Assembly: GCA_927362715.1 (NCBI GenBank)
Contig: CAKMIX010000022.1
Location: forward strand, 1-41,897
Direction: 5' to 3'
Origin: an uncultured Clostridia bacterium
GTDB lineage: Bacteria > Bacillota > Clostridia > Oscillospirales > Acutalibacteraceae
Length of the DNA stretch: 41,897 nucleotides
The notes below the pieces were generated by a model, which searched no databases, was not told the origin of the DNA, and saw only the letters and a list, made by a program, of their open reading frames with translations. Of the stretch, positions 9,002-41,897 are shown in pieces; position 1 is the stretch's first letter; each line of letters begins with the position of its first letter. A program made the translations under genes and the position numbers.

Positions 9002-9600
9002 TGCTGCCCTCCTGCGGTAGATAGTTTTTGACTATAGGTTGTTTGTGATTCCGTTCGCGGGAAGCTTTGTGCGAAACGGCAGTCAAGCTGAAAGCTTCAA
9101 GTTTCCTGTCGTAGGGGCGGGTCTCTGCGCCCGCCCGAGCAAAGCGTGGAAAGAAAACAACTTGTGTCTGTTACGAAAACCGTGATTCTGTTTTTCGCCA
9201 AAAGAAGCTACAAAAACCAACTTTCTTGCGGGCGGGCACAGAGACCCGCCCCTACAGGATTGTACAGATTTTTCGTTGCTTTCGCAGCCGAAAAATTATA
9301 CGAACGCTTAGTTTTCAAAAAATCTTCCTGCGCCGCTTCTGACATCTGCATTCTGTATTCTGAACTCTGTCCGCGGGCGGGCGCTTAAGCCCCGCCCCTA
9401 CAGCTGTAAACAAATTGTTTCTGCGAAGCCGCAGTTTTACATGAAACCCGCCTGTACCGCATCTAATCTCTAACGTCTAACATCTAATTTCTAATATCTG
9501 ACATCTGATCGGAGCCCCGCCCCTACCACTACAGACTTTATTTCTTCTGCGCAGCCATACCTTTGCGTGAAGCCTGTTTCCTGTGATAGATGGTTTTTGA
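9002..9600. repeat. Composite repeat region between dapF and the ANTAR gene
   Basis: Contains TAGATAGTTTTTGACTA at about 9017, a core, the 145-bp module 9111-9255, a core, an inverted 5-heptamer array 9335-9369, an inverted GTAGGGGCGGG terminus ending near 9400, a core, and an inverted 7-heptamer array 9459-9507. A final core (about 9510-9580) leads into TAGATGGTTTTTGACTA, which supplies the ANTAR-gene stop. No gene is seen. Confidence 0.85.
9111..9255 (+). repeat. 145-bp GTAGGGGCGGG-bounded module (plus)
   Basis: Full copy with both inverted termini. The interior shares GTGATTCTGTTTTTCGCC and CCAACTTTC with the module at 7900. Confidence 0.8.
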
Positions 9601-13150: not shown

Positions 13151-13351
13151 TAGACGGTAGATCTTAGCCGCCGGAGGTTAGATGCCGGACGCCGGGTGCC
13201 GGATTTTGGATATGGGGGCGGGGCAGTTTCTGCGCAACCGAAAATCAGCACACACCCGTAGGGACAGCCCTTGCGGCTTGTGCAAATTTTCGGCTTTGCA
13301 GAACCTGCCGTGCCTCTCATCCAGCATCCAGCATCCAGTGTCCAGCATCTA
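13151..13351. repeat. Repeat element between serS and guaB
   Basis: Nine plus-oriented heptamers in exact register (13151-13213), several with C/G at the first two positions (CGGACGC type). A core follows with the CGTAGGGACAGCCC element (about 13257-13284), then an inverted 5-heptamer array (13317-13351) that directly abuts the serS terminator. Confidence 0.85.
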
Positions 13352-17340: not shown

Positions 17341-17622
17341 TACGGTGCGGTGACGGAATTCGAACACACGGCGGGAGCAGAGCCCCGCCCTACACGATGT
17401 AACGGCTGTTTTCCAGTAAAAAATCCACACAAACCCCGTAGGCGCGGGAGCTTCCCCTGTTAGGGGAAATTGCCGCGTAGCGGACAAAAGGATGCCGGAA
17501 TCCGGAGGATTTCCGTGCCCGTCCGCAAACAGAGATCAGAATATGGATGTTAGATGTCAGAGTTGGTGCGGGCAGATTTCACACGTTGCCGTGGCAACGT
17601 TAAAAACTACATGTTTTATCTT

Positions 17623-17767
17623 GTAGGGGCGGGTCTCTGCGCCCGCCCGTAAGAAAGTTGGATTTTGTAATCGGTTACGGCGAAAAACAGAATTATGGTT
17701 TTCATAACAGACGCAAGTTCTTTTCTTTCTGCACTCTGCTCGGGCGGGCACGGAGACCCGCCCCTAC
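17623..17767 (-). repeat. 145-bp GTAGGGGCGGG-bounded module (minus)
   Basis: Full copy, nearly identical (about two mismatches over 145 bp by eye) to 41598-41742, 24 kb away in direct orientation. Confidence 0.85.
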
Positions 17768-18011
17768 GGCATAAAACATCAAAATTCAGCATCGTCGTAG
17801 GGCGTTTGGGAAGCTGCACTTCCTTCGGGCAGGCGTGGAAATCCTCCGGATTCCGGAAACCCTTTGTCCGCTGCGCGGACATCTCCCTTAATAAGGGAGT
17901 CACCTGCCACTACGCGTAGTCGATATTTATTTGCGCAGCCGCGGCTGTGCGTAAAATCCACCCGCACCGTGTCTAACATCTAACATCTAATATCTAATAT
18001 CTAAAAGGCGA

Positions 18012-26250: not shown

Positions 26251-26850
26251 AGAAAACCTCCATGCTGTTAGATACTGGATGTTAGATTCTGGATGCTGGA
26301 TGTGGGGTGGGGAAGGTTGTGCGAACCGGAATTCAGAATACAGATGTTAGATGTCAGAAGTCAGATATCAGAAGTTAGAAATTAGACATTAGATGCGGTG
26401 CAGGCGGATTTCACACAAAGCAGCGATTGCGCTGAAACTTGATGCCCTATCTTGTAGGGGCGGGTCTCTGTGCCCGCCCGCCGGTCAGATATCAGAAATT
26501 AGAAATCAGAGGTCAGATGCGGTGCAAGCAGGTTTTACACAAAGCTGCGGGTACGCTGAAAAATTGATGTTTTCTGTCGTAGGGGCGGGGTTTAAGCAGA
26601 CTTTTTATGCTTTTCGAAGTCGAAAAGTTGTACGAACGCTCGGTTTTCATGAAATCTTCCTGCGCCGCTTCTGACTTCTAATCTCTGTATTCTGATCTCT
26701 GTCCGCGGGCGGGCGCTTAAGCCCCGCCCCTACAGGGTTAATCAAATTTTTAAATCTCTTCGCAGCCGAAAGGTCATACCGACGAACGGGAGTGATAAAA
26801 CGTCCTGTTCTGATTCTGCCCTCTGTCTTCTGATTTCTGACTTCTGCGCC
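26251..26850. repeat. Composite repeat region between yidC and yidD
   Basis: The clearest example in the window. Five heptamers at 26269-26303; ten uninterrupted heptamers at 26327-26396; a core with GGTGCAGGCGG; a GTAGGGGCGGG hairpin (about 26456-26482); five heptamers 26486-26520; a second core and a truncated terminus (about 26579); a third core with TTTTCGAAGTCGAAAA; an inverted five 26667-26701; an inverted terminus ending near 26733; and an inverted five 26812-26846 next to the yidD stop. No gene. Confidence 0.9.
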
Positions 26851-27834: not shown

Positions 27835-28560
27835 CAGATGCCGGATACTGAATATTAGATGTGCAAGCCGGAGCGCAGAATACAGACGTTAGACGGCAGA
27901 AGCGGTGCAGGCGGGTTTGCAGAAAACCGAAAGGAAACGCGCACCCGTAGGGACAGCCCTTGCGGCTGGCCGCTTTTAGATTTTAGACGTTAGATATTAG
28001 AAGTTAACCGTGGGGCAGGTGGTTTCACGCAAAGCCGCGGCTGTGCAGAAACCGAATTTTCGCAGTTGTAGGGGCGGGGCTCCAATCAGATGTTAGATGT
28101 TAGAAATTAGACATTAGATGCGGTACAGCTAGGGTTACGTATTGCTGCGGCTACGTAGGAAAAATAGCCTTTGCAGTTGTAGGGGCGGGTCTCTGCGCCC
28201 GCCCGAGCAGGGTGCGGAAAGAAAACTGCTTTCGTCTGTGATAAAAACCGTAATTCTGTTTTTCGCCGCAACCGAATGCAAAACCCGACTTCCTTGCGGG
28301 CGGGCGCTTAAGCCCCGCCCCTACGGGGTTCAGCAAAATTTGAATTGCTTTCGCAGCCGAAAAGCGGGGGTAATTCCTCTGGCAGGGGAAATGTCGCGCA
28401 GCGACAAAGGGGACGGCTCCGTTGGCGGTGGCTTTTGCCTGCGAAAAAAGCCGGAGGGAGAGACCGTAGGTCGGGGGCAAGCCCCCGCCGATACAGAAGT
28501 CGCATATACGGCGCGAGCAAGCCCGCGCCCTACCGTTTTTATCTTCTGCTTTTATGCTGC
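27835..28560. repeat. Composite repeat region in the rpmH-dnaA (oriC) interval
   Basis: Arrays: 4 heptamers 27835-27862; fives at 27869-27903, 27977-28011 and 28087-28121. A CGTAGGGACAGCCC element lies at about 27945-27972. The 145-bp module spans 28179-28324 and is followed by a three-palindrome unit (about 28369-28450) and two further hairpins (about 28466-28540) of the GCAAGC-loop type. No gene. Confidence 0.85.
28179..28324 (+). repeat. 145-bp GTAGGGGCGGG-bounded module (plus)
   Basis: Full copy near oriC. Together with its left core (28121-28210) it forms a 90-bp exact inverted match to 34101-34190. Confidence 0.85.
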
Positions 28561-28866: not shown

Positions 28867-30204
28867 ATGGACTCTCTTTCCGAATTGTGGGATGCCGTGT
28901 GCACCTATGTGCGCACCACGGGCGGGATCACGGATTCCGTCTTTACCTTATGGATCGAGCCGCTGTTTATCGACAGCTTCGACGGGGAGACCGTCATTCT
29001 CGGCATTGAAAGCGAATTCAAGTTCGGGATCGTCGAAAAAAAATTCAATCCGCTTTTGGAGGATGCGTTTTTCTCTGTCTTGGGCTTCCCCGTTACGGTG
29101 GAGATCCGCCTGATCCAAAAAGAAGCGCCGGAAGAAGCGCCGCGCGCGGCAGCTGCAGCGGCAGAGGCGGGCGATGACCTGGTTATCAACAACCCGCACA
29201 ACAGCTTTGAAAATTTCGTTGTCGGCAAATCCAACAACTACGCTTATGCCGCGGCAAAAAAGGTCGCCGAAAATCCCGGCACCGCTTACAACCCGCTGTT
29301 TATCTACGGCAAAAGCGGTCTTGGGAAAACGCACCTGTTAAAAGCGATCGAAAATTACATGCGCAGCAAAAACCCCGATGCTTCCATCATTTATGTCACC
29401 AGCGAGCATTTCACGAACGACATCATTGAGCATATCCGCAATTCCAATACCGTCGCCCTGCGGGAAAAATACCGCCGTGCGGACGCGCTTTTGGTGGACG
29501 ACATCCAATTCATTGCCGGCAAAAATTCGATTGAAGAGGAATTTTTCCACACGTTCAATTCCTTAACGGAGGACGGCAAGCAGATCGTGCTTTCGTCCGA
29601 TAACCCGCCCAACGAGATCCCGAAGCTCACCGAGCGGCTCAAGAACCGCTTTGAGTGGGGCCTCATGGCGGACATCCAGCCCCCGGATTTTGAAATGCGC
29701 GTCGCGATCATCAAAAATAAGGCCGAAGCGCTCCGCTTTGTTATCCCGGACAACGTCTTGGAATTCATTGCCGAACAGGTCAGCCACAACGTGCGCCAGC
29801 TGGAAGGCGCCGTCAAAAAGCTGCAGGCGATCTGCGCGCTGCTGAACACCGCCCCGACCATCGAGATCACAAAAGACGCCATCAAGGAATTGATGAATAC
29901 CACGCAGCCCGTCTCCGTCGTGCGCGAGCGCATCCTTGAAAACGTCGCCGCCGCCACGGGCGTGAGCGTGGAAAACATCGTCTCGGACAAGCGCGACAAA
30001 AATATCAAGGACGCGCGGCAGATCGCAATGTATATCATCCGCGAGATGACCGGCATGTCTTTAGAAGAGATCGGCAAGTGCTTTAACGGGAAGACCCATT
30101 CCACGGTCAAGCACTCCATCAGCAATGTTGCCGAGCGTATGGACCGCGAAAAAGACTTTAAGGCGCTCATTGAAAACCTCATCAAAAACGTGCAGGAGTT
30201 TTGA
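28867..30204 (+). CDS. dnaA: Chromosomal replication initiator DnaA
   Basis: DnaA (445 residues) binds and melts oriC and loads the helicase. Domain I (1-80) and a short Ala-rich linker precede the AAA+ domain with Walker A GKSGLGKT (148-155) and Walker B LLVDDIQF. The C-terminal DNA-binding domain keeps DARQIAMYIIREMTGMSLEEIG, but the recognition helix reads FNGKTHSTVKHSISN (406-420) where most bacteria have FGGRDHTTVIHA. Residues equivalent to E. coli Arg432, Asp433 and Thr435 are Lys, Thr and Ser. The protein is otherwise full length, so this is a functional variant, not decay. Confidence 0.97.
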   Translation: MDSLSELWDAVCTYVRTTGGITDSVFTLWIEPLFIDSFDGETVILGIESEFKFGIVEKKFNPLLEDAFFSVLGFPVTVEIRLIQKEAPEEAPRAAAAAAEAGDDLVINNPHNSFENFVVGKSNNYAYAAAKKVAENPGTAYNPLFIYGKSGLGKTHLLKAIENYMRSKNPDASIIYVTSEHFTNDIIEHIRNSNTVALREKYRRADALLVDDIQFIAGKNSIEEEFFHTFNSLTEDGKQIVLSSDNPPNEIPKLTERLKNRFEWGLMADIQPPDFEMRVAIIKNKAEALRFVIPDNVLEFIAEQVSHNVRQLEGAVKKLQAICALLNTAPTIEITKDAIKELMNTTQPVSVVRERILENVAAATGVSVENIVSDKRDKNIKDARQIAMYIIREMTGMSLEEIGKCFNGKTHSTVKHSISNVAERMDREKDFKALIENLIKNVQEF

Positions 30205-31791: not shown

Positions 31792-32291
31792 AATGCAGAA
31801 GTCAGAAGCGGCGGGGGCTTACAGAATTCTGATTTCAGAGGGCAGAAACGTGCGGGGATGTTTCATTAAAACCGTGTGTTTGTAAAACCCTTCGGCTGCG
31901 AAAACAACGAAAAATCTGTACAATCTTGTAGGGGCGGGGCTTAAGCGCCCGCCCGAGCAGAGTGCGAAAAGAAAACAACTTATGTCTGTTATGAAAGTTG
32001 TGATTCTGATATTCGCCGTAACTGATTGCAAAACCCGACTTCCTTGCGGGCGGGCACGGAGACCCGCCCCTACAACAGAAAATATCAAGTTTTCAGTGCA
32101 GCCGCAGCTTTGTGAAAAACCTGCCTGTACCGCATCCGCTCTTTGTTTTCAGAAAACTGACTTCCGGAAACGGCCAGCCGCGAGGGCTGTCCCTACGGAT
32201 TGCGCGTTATTCGGCTTCACGCAAAACTTTCCCATCCCACATTTAGCATCTAACATCTAAAATCCAGCGTCTAACAAACGGCGGTGAAATC
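31775..32291. repeat. Composite repeat region between yaaA and recF
   Basis: Five heptamers (31775-31809) begin inside yaaA. Four more lie at 31822-31849, then a core with CTTCGGCTGCGAAAA and the 145-bp module 31928-32073. An inverted core, an inverted CGTAGGGACAGCCC element (about 32173-32200) and an inverted five (32239-32273) end 18 bp before the recF ATG. No gene. Confidence 0.87.
31928..32073 (+). repeat. 145-bp GTAGGGGCGGG-bounded module (plus)
   Basis: Full copy with both termini; interior CTGATTGCAAAACCCGACTT resembles the copy at 28179. Confidence 0.8.
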
Positions 32292-33637: not shown

Positions 33638-34372
33638 AAAGCGGAAGCAGCAAGGGAACACCTCATGAAAGTCGAGTGTTTGTGTAATTTTACGGCTGCG
33701 AAAACAACAAAAAATCTGCTTAAACTCGTAGGGGCGGGGCTCCAATCAGATGTTAGATATGTTAGAAATTAGACTTCAGATGTGGTACAGGCGGGTTTCA
33801 CGCATTACCGCGGCTGCGCTGAAAACGAAAAATCTGTAGTCTTAGGGGCGGGGCTTAAGCGCCCGCCCGCGGACAGAGATCAGAATACAGAGATTAGAAG
33901 TCAGAAGCGGCGCAGGAAGATTTCATGAAAACCGAGCGTTCGTACAACTTTTCGACTTCGAAAAGCATAAAAAGTCTGCTTAAACTTGTAGGGGCGGGGC
34001 TTAAGCGCCCGCCCGCAAGGAAGTCGGGTTTTGCAATCGGTTACGGCGAAAAACAGAATTACGGTTTCATAACAGACACAAGCTGTTTTCATTCCGCACT
34101 CTGCTCGGGCGGGCGCAGAGACCCGCCCCTACAACTGCAAAGGCTATTTTTCCTACGTAGCCGCAGCAATACGTAACCCTAGCTGTACCGTATCTAATGT
34201 CTAATATCTAACATCTAAAATCTAAAAGCGGCCAGCCGCAAGGGCTGTCCCTATGGGTCCGCGATTCTTTTGGCTTCGAACAAATCCACCTCCACCGCAT
34301 CTGACATCTAACGTCTGTATTCTGAATTCCGGTCCGAACATCTAAAATCCGGCATCTGCAATCCAGTATCTA
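33635..34372. repeat. Composite repeat region between remB and gyrB
   Basis: Heptamer pair at 33635-33648 (contains remB stop); cores and GTAGGGGCGGG termini near 33729 and 33841; an array 33747-33783 with one 8-bp unit; a five at 33874-33908; the minus 145-bp module 33988-34132; an inverted five 34190-34224; an inverted CGTAGGGACAGCCC element (about 34227-34252); and inverted arrays 34297-34331 and 34338-34372 that stop just before the gyrB AAGGAG site. No gene. Confidence 0.88.
33988..34132 (-). repeat. 145-bp GTAGGGGCGGG-bounded module (minus)
   Basis: Full copy; inverted partner of the oriC-side copy at 28179-28324. Confidence 0.85.
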
Positions 34373-36358: not shown

Positions 36359-36399
36359 GCGGCAGATAAAATTTAACTAAAAAAGTTCGACAAGCTCGT

Positions 36400-36528
36400 T
36401 CCTCCCTCTGTTGAGGGAGGTGTCAAAACGGCAAATATGCCGTTTTGACGGAGGGAGAGAAAAATTCGTACAGATTTTGTCTCTCCCCCTGCCGCCCTGC
36501 GGCGGCATCCCCCTCGTCAGAGGGGGGG
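36400..36528. repeat. Distinct multi-hairpin repeat between gyrB and gyrA
   Basis: Four near-perfect hairpins in a row: CCTCCCTC/GAGGGAGG (36401-36420), GTCAAAACGGCA/TGCCGTTTTGAC (36422-36449), TGCCGCC/GGCGGCA (about 36490-36507) and CCCCCTC/GAGGGGG (about 36509-36527). It has no heptamers and no GTAGGGGCGGG, so it is a different family. It may attenuate gyrB-gyrA read-through. Confidence 0.8.
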
Positions 36529-36562
36529 AAGAATATCCATCAGCAAAGAGGGATAAAACACC

Positions 36563-39124: not shown

Positions 39125-39237
39125 AAGTTTTAAATCTCGTAACAATTCCGTCGCAAACGCGTGGTATATCTGAGTAGAAGCGTCGGCGCAGCCGGCGAAG
39201 CCCTGCGGGGCGATTTCGGATGGAAGTGAGTGTGCGT

Positions 39238-40755
39238 ATGGAGAATATGCAAAACAACGCGCAAAATACGCAGGCAGCACACAACGGGCAAGGGGCAGCT
39301 CCGCCCGCGCCGGGCACGCAGCCTGTACAAAATGTGCAAAACCCGCAAAATGTGCAAAACCCGCAGACGGCACAGACGCCCGAACAGGCGGCGCCGTCCC
39401 AAACTGCGCGCGCACCGTATACCGCGCAGCAGCCGAATTTTGCGCAAAATCCGTATGTGAACCGTGCGCCGAACAGCGCGCAGAATCCGTATGTGAACCG
39501 TGCGCCGAACAGCGCGCAGAATCCATATGCCCAAAACACGGGCTATGCGAACCGTGCGCCGAACAGCGCGCAGAATCCGTATGCCCAAAACGCGGGCTAT
39601 GCGAACCGCCCGCCGAACAGCGCGCAGAATCCGTATGCCCAAAACACGGGCTATGCGAACCGCCCGCCCTACGGAACACAGAATCCGTATGGGCAGCGCC
39701 CGCCCTATGGGGCGCAGAACCCGCAAAACCCCCGCCCGCCTTACGGGCAGGGGCAGCCGCCTTACGGCTATCGGCCGCCCGCGCCGGATACCAAGGTCTA
39801 TATGTCGCCGGAAAAGCTGCGCGACCAGACGCAGATCCGCCGTATCAGCAACGCCACGGGGCTTTCCGTCATCGCGTTCACGGCGCTGCCGTTCCTGATC
39901 AGCTTTGCCTTGGCGCTCATCCCGGGCTTTTTTGATGTATATAACGGCAATTCCGTGTTTTATGTTTGCTTCAACGCCCTGTATTCGACCGTGGTGATCG
40001 GCGTCCCGTTTTACTGCGTCTACCGCTTCCTGCGCAAAAGACAGGCGATCGGCGAGCTGAACCTCGGCACGCCCGTAAACGGCGGCATGACCGCGCTTTT
40101 GATCTTCGCGGCGCTGATGTGCTGCATGGTGGGCAACTATGCCGCAAATTTCTTTTCCACGTTTGTCGAATCAATCTTCGGCATCCGGTTTGTCTCCCCG
40201 ACCGATGAATTCACGATCACGGGCGGCGCGACCTTTTTCCTGCGCGTTGTCCAGACCGCCGTTCTGCCCGCGCTCATCGAGGAATTTGCCGTGCGCGGGG
40301 TGGTCATGCAGCCTCTGCGGCGCTACGGCGACCGGTTCGCGCTGCTGATGTCGGCTTTCGTGTTTGCGCTTATGCACGGCAATATGGTGCAGATCCCCTT
40401 TGCGTTCATCGCAGGGCTTGCCATCGGCTACGCCGTCATCGCCACGGGCTCCATGTGGACGGGGGTGCTCATCCACTTCTGCAACAACCTGATCGCGGTC
40501 TGCTCAGAGGCGGCGTATGACCTGCTGCCCGAAGAGGCGGCGGCGCTCATCACCCTCGCGATGATGGCGCTGGTGTTCGTCGTGGGGCTGGTGTGCGCGA
40601 TCGTATACGCCAAGCGCTACGCCCGCGTGCCGCTCACAAAAACGAAGACGCAGCTCGACACGCGCGAAAAGAACCGCGCCTTTTTGTGCAGCGCGCCCAT
40701 GATCATCGCCATTGTCCTGCTGGTCTTGGAGACCATTCAATATGTGGAATTCTGA
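39238..40755 (+). CDS. CPBP-family (Rce1-like) intramembrane protein with repeat-rich N-terminus
   Basis: A membrane protein of about 505 residues. Residues 1-185 are disordered and rich in Asn/Gln/Pro/Ala/Tyr, with repeated NRAPNSAQNPY units. The rest has about seven or eight membrane segments with the three CPBP motifs: EEFAVR (348-353), FALMH (377-381 region, His380) and HFCNN (His413-Asn417). CPBP proteins include CAAX-type proteases and bacteriocin self-immunity proteins; the substrate here is unknown. I chose the ATG at 39238 because GGAAGTGAG lies seven bases upstream; an in-frame ATG at 39220 has no good site. The end overlaps tadA by 14 bp. Confidence 0.85.
   Translation: MENMQNNAQNTQAAHNGQGAAPPAPGTQPVQNVQNPQNVQNPQTAQTPEQAAPSQTARAPYTAQQPNFAQNPYVNRAPNSAQNPYVNRAPNSAQNPYAQNTGYANRAPNSAQNPYAQNAGYANRPPNSAQNPYAQNTGYANRPPYGTQNPYGQRPPYGAQNPQNPRPPYGQGQPPYGYRPPAPDTKVYMSPEKLRDQTQIRRISNATGLSVIAFTALPFLISFALALIPGFFDVYNGNSVFYVCFNALYSTVVIGVPFYCVYRFLRKRQAIGELNLGTPVNGGMTALLIFAALMCCMVGNYAANFFSTFVESIFGIRFVSPTDEFTITGGATFFLRVVQTAVLPALIEEFAVRGVVMQPLRRYGDRFALLMSAFVFALMHGNMVQIPFAFIAGLAIGYAVIATGSMWTGVLIHFCNNLIAVCSEAAYDLLPEEAAALITLAMMALVFVVGLVCAIVYAKRYARVPLTKTKTQLDTREKNRAFLCSAPMIIAIVLLVLETIQYVEF
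39457..39670 (+). repeat. In-frame tandem repeat in the CPBP gene
   Basis: Two 36-bp units (39457-39492, 39493-39528) are followed by 54-bp units at 39529-39582 and 39583-39636 and a partial third. They share the NRAPNSAQNPY coding core; the 54-bp form adds AQNTGYA. Multiples of three keep the frame. Confidence 0.88.
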
Positions 40756-41275: not shown

Positions 41276-41897
41276 GTTTGTTGAAACCGCGTGTTTGCAG
41301 AGCCTTTCGGCTGCGAAAACAAGTAAAATTCTGCTGAAACCTGTAGGGGCGGGCAGAACAGAATTCAGAAATTAGAAGTCAGAAATCAGATGCGGTGCGG
41401 GTAAGTTTTACGCATTGCCGTGGCTGCGCTGAAAAGTGGATGCTTTCTGTCGTAGGGGCGGGTCTTAAGTGCCCGCCTGAGAACAGAAGTCAGATTTCAG
41501 AGGTCAGAGGGCAGAAATCGTGCGGGGATGATTCATCAAAACTGCGTGTTTGTACAACCTTTCGGCTACGAAAACAAGTAAAATTCTGCTGAAACCTGTA
41601 GGGGCGGGTCTCTGCGCCCGCCCGTAAGAAAGTTGGATTTTGTAATCGGTTACGGCGAAAAACAGAATTATGGTTTTCATAACAGACGCAAGTTCTTTTC
41701 TTTCCGCACTCTGCTCGGGCGGGCACAGAGACCCGCCCCTACAGTGGTGCACGGTTCATTTCAGCGCAGCCGCGGTAATGCGTGAAACTTGCCTGCACCG
41801 CTTCTGACCTCTGGTTTCTAATTTCTGACATCTGAATGCAGCCCCGCCCCTACAGTGGTGCACGGTTCATTTCAGCGCAGCCGCGGTAATGCGTGAA
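41230..41897. repeat. Composite repeat region from tadA to the right edge
   Basis: Five heptamers 41230-41264 lie inside tadA. Then come a core with TTTCGGCTGCGAAAA; a terminus (41343); a five at 41359-41393; a core; a GTAGGGGCGGG hairpin (about 41452); a five at 41484-41518; a core; the minus 145-bp module 41598-41742; an inverted five 41800-41834; and a second copy of the 55 bp at 41732-41786 reaching the window end (41843-41897). No gene. Confidence 0.88.
41598..41742 (-). repeat. 145-bp GTAGGGGCGGG-bounded module (minus)
   Basis: Full copy, nearly identical to 17623-17767. Ends in CCCGCCCCTAC that is part of the 55-bp duplicated segment. Confidence 0.85.

Follow-up and report, generated by a model that had tools for sequence, protein, structure and literature searches.

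The heptamer arrays described here are, on balance, probably the inverted arms of foldback elements, dispersed and about 180 or 350 bp long, which share the architecture of S23/IVP elements; five units would be the preferred constant of the arm, and a pentamer may recognise it. The arrays were found in a window of 41,897 nucleotides, the whole stretch of DNA that was analysed, which is contig 22 of an uncultured bacterium of the Clostridia and which carries dnaA (28867..30204, + strand, TIGR00362; the origin-side marker), dnaN, gyrB, gyrA, yidC, yidD and rnpA. They have a preferred count of units, are paired in inverted orientation at discrete sizes, cluster around the replication origin, and recur in other genomes as arms inside RNA genes and beside IVP genes. 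The original prediction, made from the letters of the window, was that such arrays form a binding platform, a recombination end or an RNA structure; as inverted arms of foldback elements, they belong to the class of answer that it named.

A strict scan of the window recovered 39 runs of at least three consecutive YRGANNN units, 20 on the + strand and 19 on the − strand, against 0 or 1 run in each of twenty shuffles in 200-bp blocks; the arrays are real, and their rate is not reproduced by shuffled sequence. A 45-position profile matched 45 places at E<=1, in agreement with the earlier estimate of about 45 arrays. This profile (R1) was built from 31 arrays, 18 of them from the window (2 of 33 candidates were dropped), and because it is five units long, shorter arrays are under-counted in the surveys that are based on it. 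Five units were present in 26 of the 39 strict runs, with five runs of three units, five of four, and one each of six, seven and ten; a five-unit majority had been predicted (about 35 of some 45) and is present, but the count is not fixed. Some of the three- and four-unit runs (at 2854 and 27977) are five-unit arrays with one degenerate unit, and the run at 33763 is a five-unit array with a two-base insertion. In 780,255 bp of the genome (36% of 2,167,361 bp, with 5,616 bases N; a non-random sample in which array-rich contigs are over-represented), 70 of 111 runs had five units, the others having three (17), four (11), six (7), seven (5) or ten (1), and there was thus no broad, slippage-like spread. 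Five was also the count in 31 of 46 runs in 78,851 bp of one sister genome (G019) and in 23 of 58 runs in 260,000 bp of another (G012). The triplet of each unit, which had been thought to vary freely, shows letter preferences by position and by class: identity between same-position units was.671 as against.652 when permuted (0 of 500 permutations as high), identity between units within an array was.697 as against.648 (0 of 200), and array classes have their own letters at each unit position and their own flanks.

Arrays on opposite strands occur as inverted pairs. There were 20 convergent pairs less than 5 kb apart, and 46 of the 58 outer ends of array clusters pointed inward. The inner length was 259-283 bp in nine of these pairs and 69-146 bp in seven, the remaining four having 404, 436, 499 and 3881 bp. 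An ORF of at least 100 aa was absent from 18 of the 20 convergent pairs and from eight of the nine canonical elements, the ninth having a 105-codon frame. The 3.9-kb pair encloses three ORFs, but as it begins at a three-unit run, it was not accepted as an array-bounded element with cargo genes. Typically, an array leads into a GGYRCAGG-like sequence, then a spacer that contains a weak palindrome and finally a GC-rich hairpin tagged with GTAG. A canonical 351-bp element at 33874..34224 (predicted fold z -5.5) consists of a five-by-seven arm, spacer, GTAG hairpin, core, hairpin, spacer and inverted five-by-seven arm, and a second lies at 41484..41834; a 474-bp element with an insert, its arms five and five units, occupies 17530..18003. 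The 180-bp plain foldback form at 13172..13351 is predicted to fold as a single long hairpin (-107 kcal/mol, z -10.1), with mismatches at arm nucleotides 15, 22, 29, 34 and 41, mostly seven apart. Among 16 elements from other genomes, pairing at unit position 5 was found in 52% of cases, as against 99-100% at positions 3 and 4. In the predicted folds of two elements we find the long-stem inverted terminal arms that characterise S23/IVP elements.

Pairing between the letters of the two arms was examined by swapping arms. The left and right arms of nine elements in this genome were no more complementary than arms of different elements (.676 and.687, respectively), and an excess of left-right complementarity above background was rejected for this genome. 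The 16 elements from other genomes paired better with their own arms than with swapped arms (.818 vs.780; 0 of 2000), while four elements of a single genome (L253) had no excess (.843 vs.841; 970 of 2000). A hairpin with a stem of at least 6 ended no more than 8 nt upstream of 28 of 94 arrays of at least four units, as compared to rates of 2.3% in shuffled sequence and 5.8% at 275 positions close by, and some arrays therefore adjoin an older hairpin or terminator, as if nested.

Several of these arrangements are seen between yidC and yidD. A five-unit array at 26269..26303 (+), the outer left arm adjoining yidC, is shared, together with the GGGGTGGGGAAG that follows it, with a sister species (L001, 7980-8014). 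It is followed by ten units at 26327..26396 (+), unbroken as claimed and interpreted as a pair of directly adjoining five-unit arrays, of which the second abuts GGTGCAGG. By sequence reading, a spacer arm and a GTAGGGGCGGG..CCCGCCC hairpin at 26397..26485 (+) separate this from the next array, which is the left arm (26486..26520, +) of a 216-bp short-form element (26486-26701) whose five-unit right arm is at 26667..26701 (−). The right outer arm, five units at 26812..26846 (−), adjoins yidD and has an array at the matching place in L001 (8298-8332). An exception to five is the seven-unit array at 9459..9507 (−). An Rfam scan of the window gave no match, and the elements here lie outside rRNA and other stable RNA genes. 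Two further repeats were noted: the ORF after gyrA (39220-40755) has internal tandem repeats of 36 and 54 bp at 39442-39691, and a second intergenic repeat of CTCCCTC..GAGGGAG type (window 36359-36562; L001 8030-8190) occupies sites where the other species has array-bearing inserts.

Arrays of this kind are patchily distributed. The profile matched 8 of 36 genus-labelled genomes, three of which carry 71 to 115 matches, and 44 of 299 genomes of the phylum, source genome included. Of the 43 other phylum genomes with a match, 39 contributed 49 distinct loci, which held 91 runs, 55 of five units, 28 shorter and 8 longer. An Rfam scan of all these loci, at gathering scores, placed an RNA gene at the array in 16. 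Six lay inside such a gene, namely 16S (L209, L267 and L253), 23S (L213, L264 and again L253) or RNase P RNA (L270); nine were close to tRNA genes, at distances of up to about 100 nt (L214, L215, L254, L258, L261, L263, L279, L281 and L283) and one was beside 5S (L266). The scan found no such gene at the array in the remaining 33. Compact copies have five units, a short loop or hairpin and five inverted units, and the five that were folded have predicted z values of -6.2 to -12.1.

The link to S23/IVP genes comes from loci of the same type that encode a protein. In L213, a 23S rRNA contains an IVP gene bracketed by five-unit arms. The family PF05635 was matched in 34 of 199 phylum genomes, and 8 of 30 PF05635 loci lay in RNA genes, either 23S (L228, L233, L236, L240, L245 and L246) or RNase P RNA (L235 and L237); L228, L245 and L246 are places already present in the 49-locus array survey. 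Each of the eight is flanked on either side by an arm of five or six GA-spaced heptamers, the core being TCGA in L236 and mixed in L233. The flanks of L213 and L240 resemble what we take to be the helix 45 insertion site. In L213 and L245, a small insert that bears an array interrupts the IVP gene of the 23S rRNA.

A sequence-free test, based on identity at lag 7 in 35-nt windows, detected arms on 71 of 98 sides of IVP genes in the phylum, on 24 of 32 in plasmids and on 18 of 44 in the genus. Windows 1.1 kb away scored in 4 of 98, 1 of 32 and 1 of 44 cases, respectively, and are mostly coding; the fairer control is other noncoding gaps of the same loci, which scored in 16 of 72, 2 of 19 and 2 of 25. 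In the phylum gaps, lag 7 was found in 16, lag 6 in 2 and lag 8 in 4, an excess at lag 7 that would be expected from additional arrays in the vicinity. Plasmid sides scored at lags 6 and 8 as well (6 and 10 of 32), as did phylum sides at lag 11 (6 of 58), and low complexity therefore adds noise. The plasmid set comprised 16 of 37 records with an IVP match, all cyanobacterial except one from Azospirillum; 4 of 26 IVP loci in the genus and 1 of 50 in the phylum were too short for the flank test, and the sides are not all independent (L300/L301/L304, L233/L296 and L240/L308 are repeats, and L235/L237 are from one genus). A 56-side control consisted mostly of orthologues of one gene, and its single match (L131) was an array of the source genome. 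Distinct arms (n=104) most often had five units (55), followed by six (20), four (11), seven (6) and three (3), with nine larger. The left arm resembled the inverted right arm at.773, as compared to.506 for swapped elements (45 elements; 0 of 300). The lag-7, unit-count and arm-swap tests thus show that each element has heptamer letters of its own, whereas the period, the preferred count and the inverted pairing of the arms are conserved.

Much longer heptamer arrays also occur as IVP arms, with about 17 to 55 units (L225 1831-2215, L340 and L342), and array expansion therefore takes place in some hosts. CRISPR-cas operons on three plasmids, from Pseudanabaena (L340), Anabaena sp. 90 (L342) and Picosynechococcus (L343), contain S23/four-helix-bundle genes; in two of these operons the gene stands between cas6 and cas4, and in one it separates cas10 from a cmr3-family gene.

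The source genome had no match to PF05635, and the family was absent from all of the array-rich genomes G000, G012 and G019; among the 36 genus genomes screened for arrays, it was matched in 2 of 8 array carriers, one of them weakly, as against 19 of 28 non-carriers. Elements of the window do not, therefore, encode an S23/IVP protein of this family, and what we claim for them is shared architecture and not membership.

It is also possible, although rather unlikely, that the count of five reflects descent only, from a single five-unit master element whose recent copies keep the number while slippage alters it with age. The existence of array classes with their own positional letters and flanks is in keeping with such a history, as are differences between species. 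Long aligned blocks of the sister species are 91-95% identical, and orthologous arrays were counted only where the flanks were at least 60% alike. Five of 15 such arrays had indels relative to G019, three of them of exactly 14 bp (the reverse comparison, 17 arrays and not independent, gave five with indels, four of 14 bp), while indels of 1-2 nt were present in 3 of 8 arrays relative to the more distant G012 (2 of 5 in reverse). A five-unit array at 27869..27903 (+) is identical in the sister species; the orthologue of the array at 32246..32273 (−) is longer by 14 bp, or two units. Seven-unit arrays are also found in the sister species, and with those indels and the seven-unit array of the window they contradict a strictly fixed count; five is preferred, not fixed. 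However, five is also modal in other genera and beside IVP genes whose heptamers differ (e.g., TCGANNN, GAGTGGN and CAGGAGT), as would not be anticipated for copies of one master, and the earlier contention that this is no ordinary minisatellite is upheld.

Substitutions in the same orthologues are unevenly spread over the unit. In ten gapless pairs with G019, unit positions 1-7 had 3, 3, 1, 0, 8, 7 and 8 differences per 49, as compared to 82 of 700 in the flanks; the GA core was changed at 1 of 98 positions and the NNN triplet at 23 of 147, and five gapless G012 pairs gave 3 of 50 and 26 of 75. These comparisons are suggestive of constraint on the GA core, and suggestive only because ascertainment of YRGA in one species lowers the core change to be expected. 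We found no target-site duplication or clean empty site; at the one site compared, two units are left in G012, and G025 has an array-free orthologous gap that has diverged too far to be read as an empty site.

A further explanation, which we consider improbable, is that the elements are non-autonomous REP/REPIN-type sequences moved by a Y1 (RAYT) transposase, the GTAG tag and hairpin being the mobile part and the arrays mere passengers. GTAG-tagged REPs are a known superfamily, according to passages of PMC3733652. The elements contain GTAG with a palindrome, as REP/REPIN sequences do, and carry GTAGGGGCGGG..CCCGCCC and GTAGGGACAGCC..GGCTGTCC hairpins, often as inverted pairs; they resemble REP, BIME and REPIN sequences in these tagged hairpins, in their inverted pairing and in their intergenic location. 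However, the Y1/RAYT transposase family PF01797 has no match in the source genome, and within the genus it was found in 3 of 8 array carriers (G007, G018 and, weakly, G019) as against 20 of 28 non-carriers. As it is absent here and does not track the arrays, we rejected RAYT/REPIN as the motor. Moreover, at most of the phylum loci that we read, the arrays have none of these hairpins beside them. To our knowledge, REP, BIME and REPIN sequences lack five-by-seven arms. IS110 (PF01548) is present in one copy in the genome.

Arrays are strongly crowded around dnaA. In G012, 60 of 71 profile matches are on contig 1, which accounts for 278,716 bp of a genome of about 2.1 Mb and carries dnaA at 110 kb; the binomial probability of this excess is about 1e-41. 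The array-rich contigs C12, C16, C20, C22 and C29 of the source genome map to this contig (pieces 1-220,000); neither C31 nor the likewise array-rich C14 maps to those pieces, and C31 matches contig 3 of G012. The ten largest contigs, as sampled, contained one three-unit run in 200 kb, and C2 and C7 have a few arrays outside these samples. Noncoding content was rejected as the cause of the clustering, as L082, L090, L166 and L168 are 12-15% noncoding and array-free. Two distant carriers have an array between dnaA and the next gene (L183 15480-15514 and L184 10157-10177), which from its position is inferred to be dnaN. This crowding, together with the guess of IHF or HU for the five-heptamer sites of G. 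metallireducens in PMC2700814, might point to sites for nucleoid proteins or to a marker of the origin domain akin to Noc or parS sites, which we regard as very unlikely, an essential origin function being improbable because 28 of 36 genus genomes have no array match and the elements carrying hairpins while such arms elsewhere sit inside rRNA and RNase P RNA genes.

The design had been thought undescribed, but passages and figure legends of PMC2700814 report 16 class 3 sites in Geobacter metallireducens, 15 of which consist of five heptamers in tandem; their consensus is MTYCTGA (inverse TCAGRAK), and they are depicted in pairs, one on each strand. Read as its reverse complement, this consensus is the unit of the window, and both the five tandem heptamers and the opposite-strand pairing are found here; the Geobacter sites are, however, few, and those legends and passages mention neither a hairpin core nor clustering at the origin. 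Excerpts of PMC4990558 describe the Xanthomonas S23p as a toroidal homopentamer of four-helix bundles, give helices 9, 25 and 45 as the commonest IVS sites, with the tetraloop replaced, and state that S23/IVP proteins have no known function. Two relatives do have solved structures, and the two PDB sequences matched by an IVP have five chains each as deposited. The excerpts of PMC4990558 also place tandem heptamers (GACAGAT) upstream of the ORF in a Coxiella burnetii element. Such 23S IVS with S23p/IVP share with our elements the inverted terminal stem and tandem heptamers, whereas they are coding, lie inside 23S rRNA and have two or three sets of heptamers together with a degenerate set (PMC4990558), the window elements being intergenic and non-coding.

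Cyanobacterial STRR heptamers and TAACTGA repeats are akin to ours in being intergenic heptamer tandems. According to PMC4679880, TAACTGA is present in sets of two to six in one genome; a term search of that paper did not return S23, four helix or intervening. The GGGAATC heptamers of Xanthomonas, treated in PMC4692102 in the context of G-quadruplexes, share a period of seven, a preferred count and convergent inverted pairs (70 and 75 in two genomes), but four units is the most frequent count, not five, and a preference for origin or terminus is reported to be lacking. The same paper also states that heptamer over-representation in bacterial genomes has no agreed cause and cites polymerase slippage as one idea. 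In the open-licence literature we found no paper linking heptamer arrays in general to S23/IVP genes. Three things look new: this link, a mode of five that holds for unrelated heptamers, and the concentration of non-coding copies around the origin.

Our results suggest that elements of the S23/IVP-type layout, with a private heptamer, mostly repeated five times, at one end and an inverted copy at the other, may have spread through the intergenic space around the replication origin of this Clostridia clade and become partly nested. Five would then be a preferred design constant of the arm and not merely a product of slippage. The arm may serve as the recognition site of an S23-type four-helix-bundle protein, which is reported to form a five-subunit ring; if each subunit took one 7-nt unit, the count would be accounted for, as five subunits match five heptamers. 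We know of no S23 protein-arm complex. Coding copies would carry the gene, and the copies described here may be non-coding derivatives made while such a protein was available. Mobility of the elements and a common origin with IVP elements are, like binding by a pentamer, what we infer from these patterns. The weaker contrast with noncoding gaps and the arm pairing in L253 slightly reduce our confidence in this reading.

More generally, and tentatively, period seven and count five may together act as a molecular ruler. Bacterial heptamer arrays whose letters are arbitrary and private to the element would form the arms of S23/IVP-type hairpin elements, a widespread class, each heptamer being read by one subunit of a pentameric ring. 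Coding members would reside in operons, including cas operons, and within the genes for rRNA and RNase P RNA, and orphan non-coding descendants, as in this window, would be a main source of heptamer over-representation. Another pattern that calls for an explanation is the concentration of a dispersed element near the origin in a single clade. S23/IVP-type arms could help to explain why seven-base repeats are common in bacterial genomes, and, if the arm is indeed the site of the pentamer, both the over-representation of heptamers and the function of S23/IVP proteins would be testable with one binding assay.
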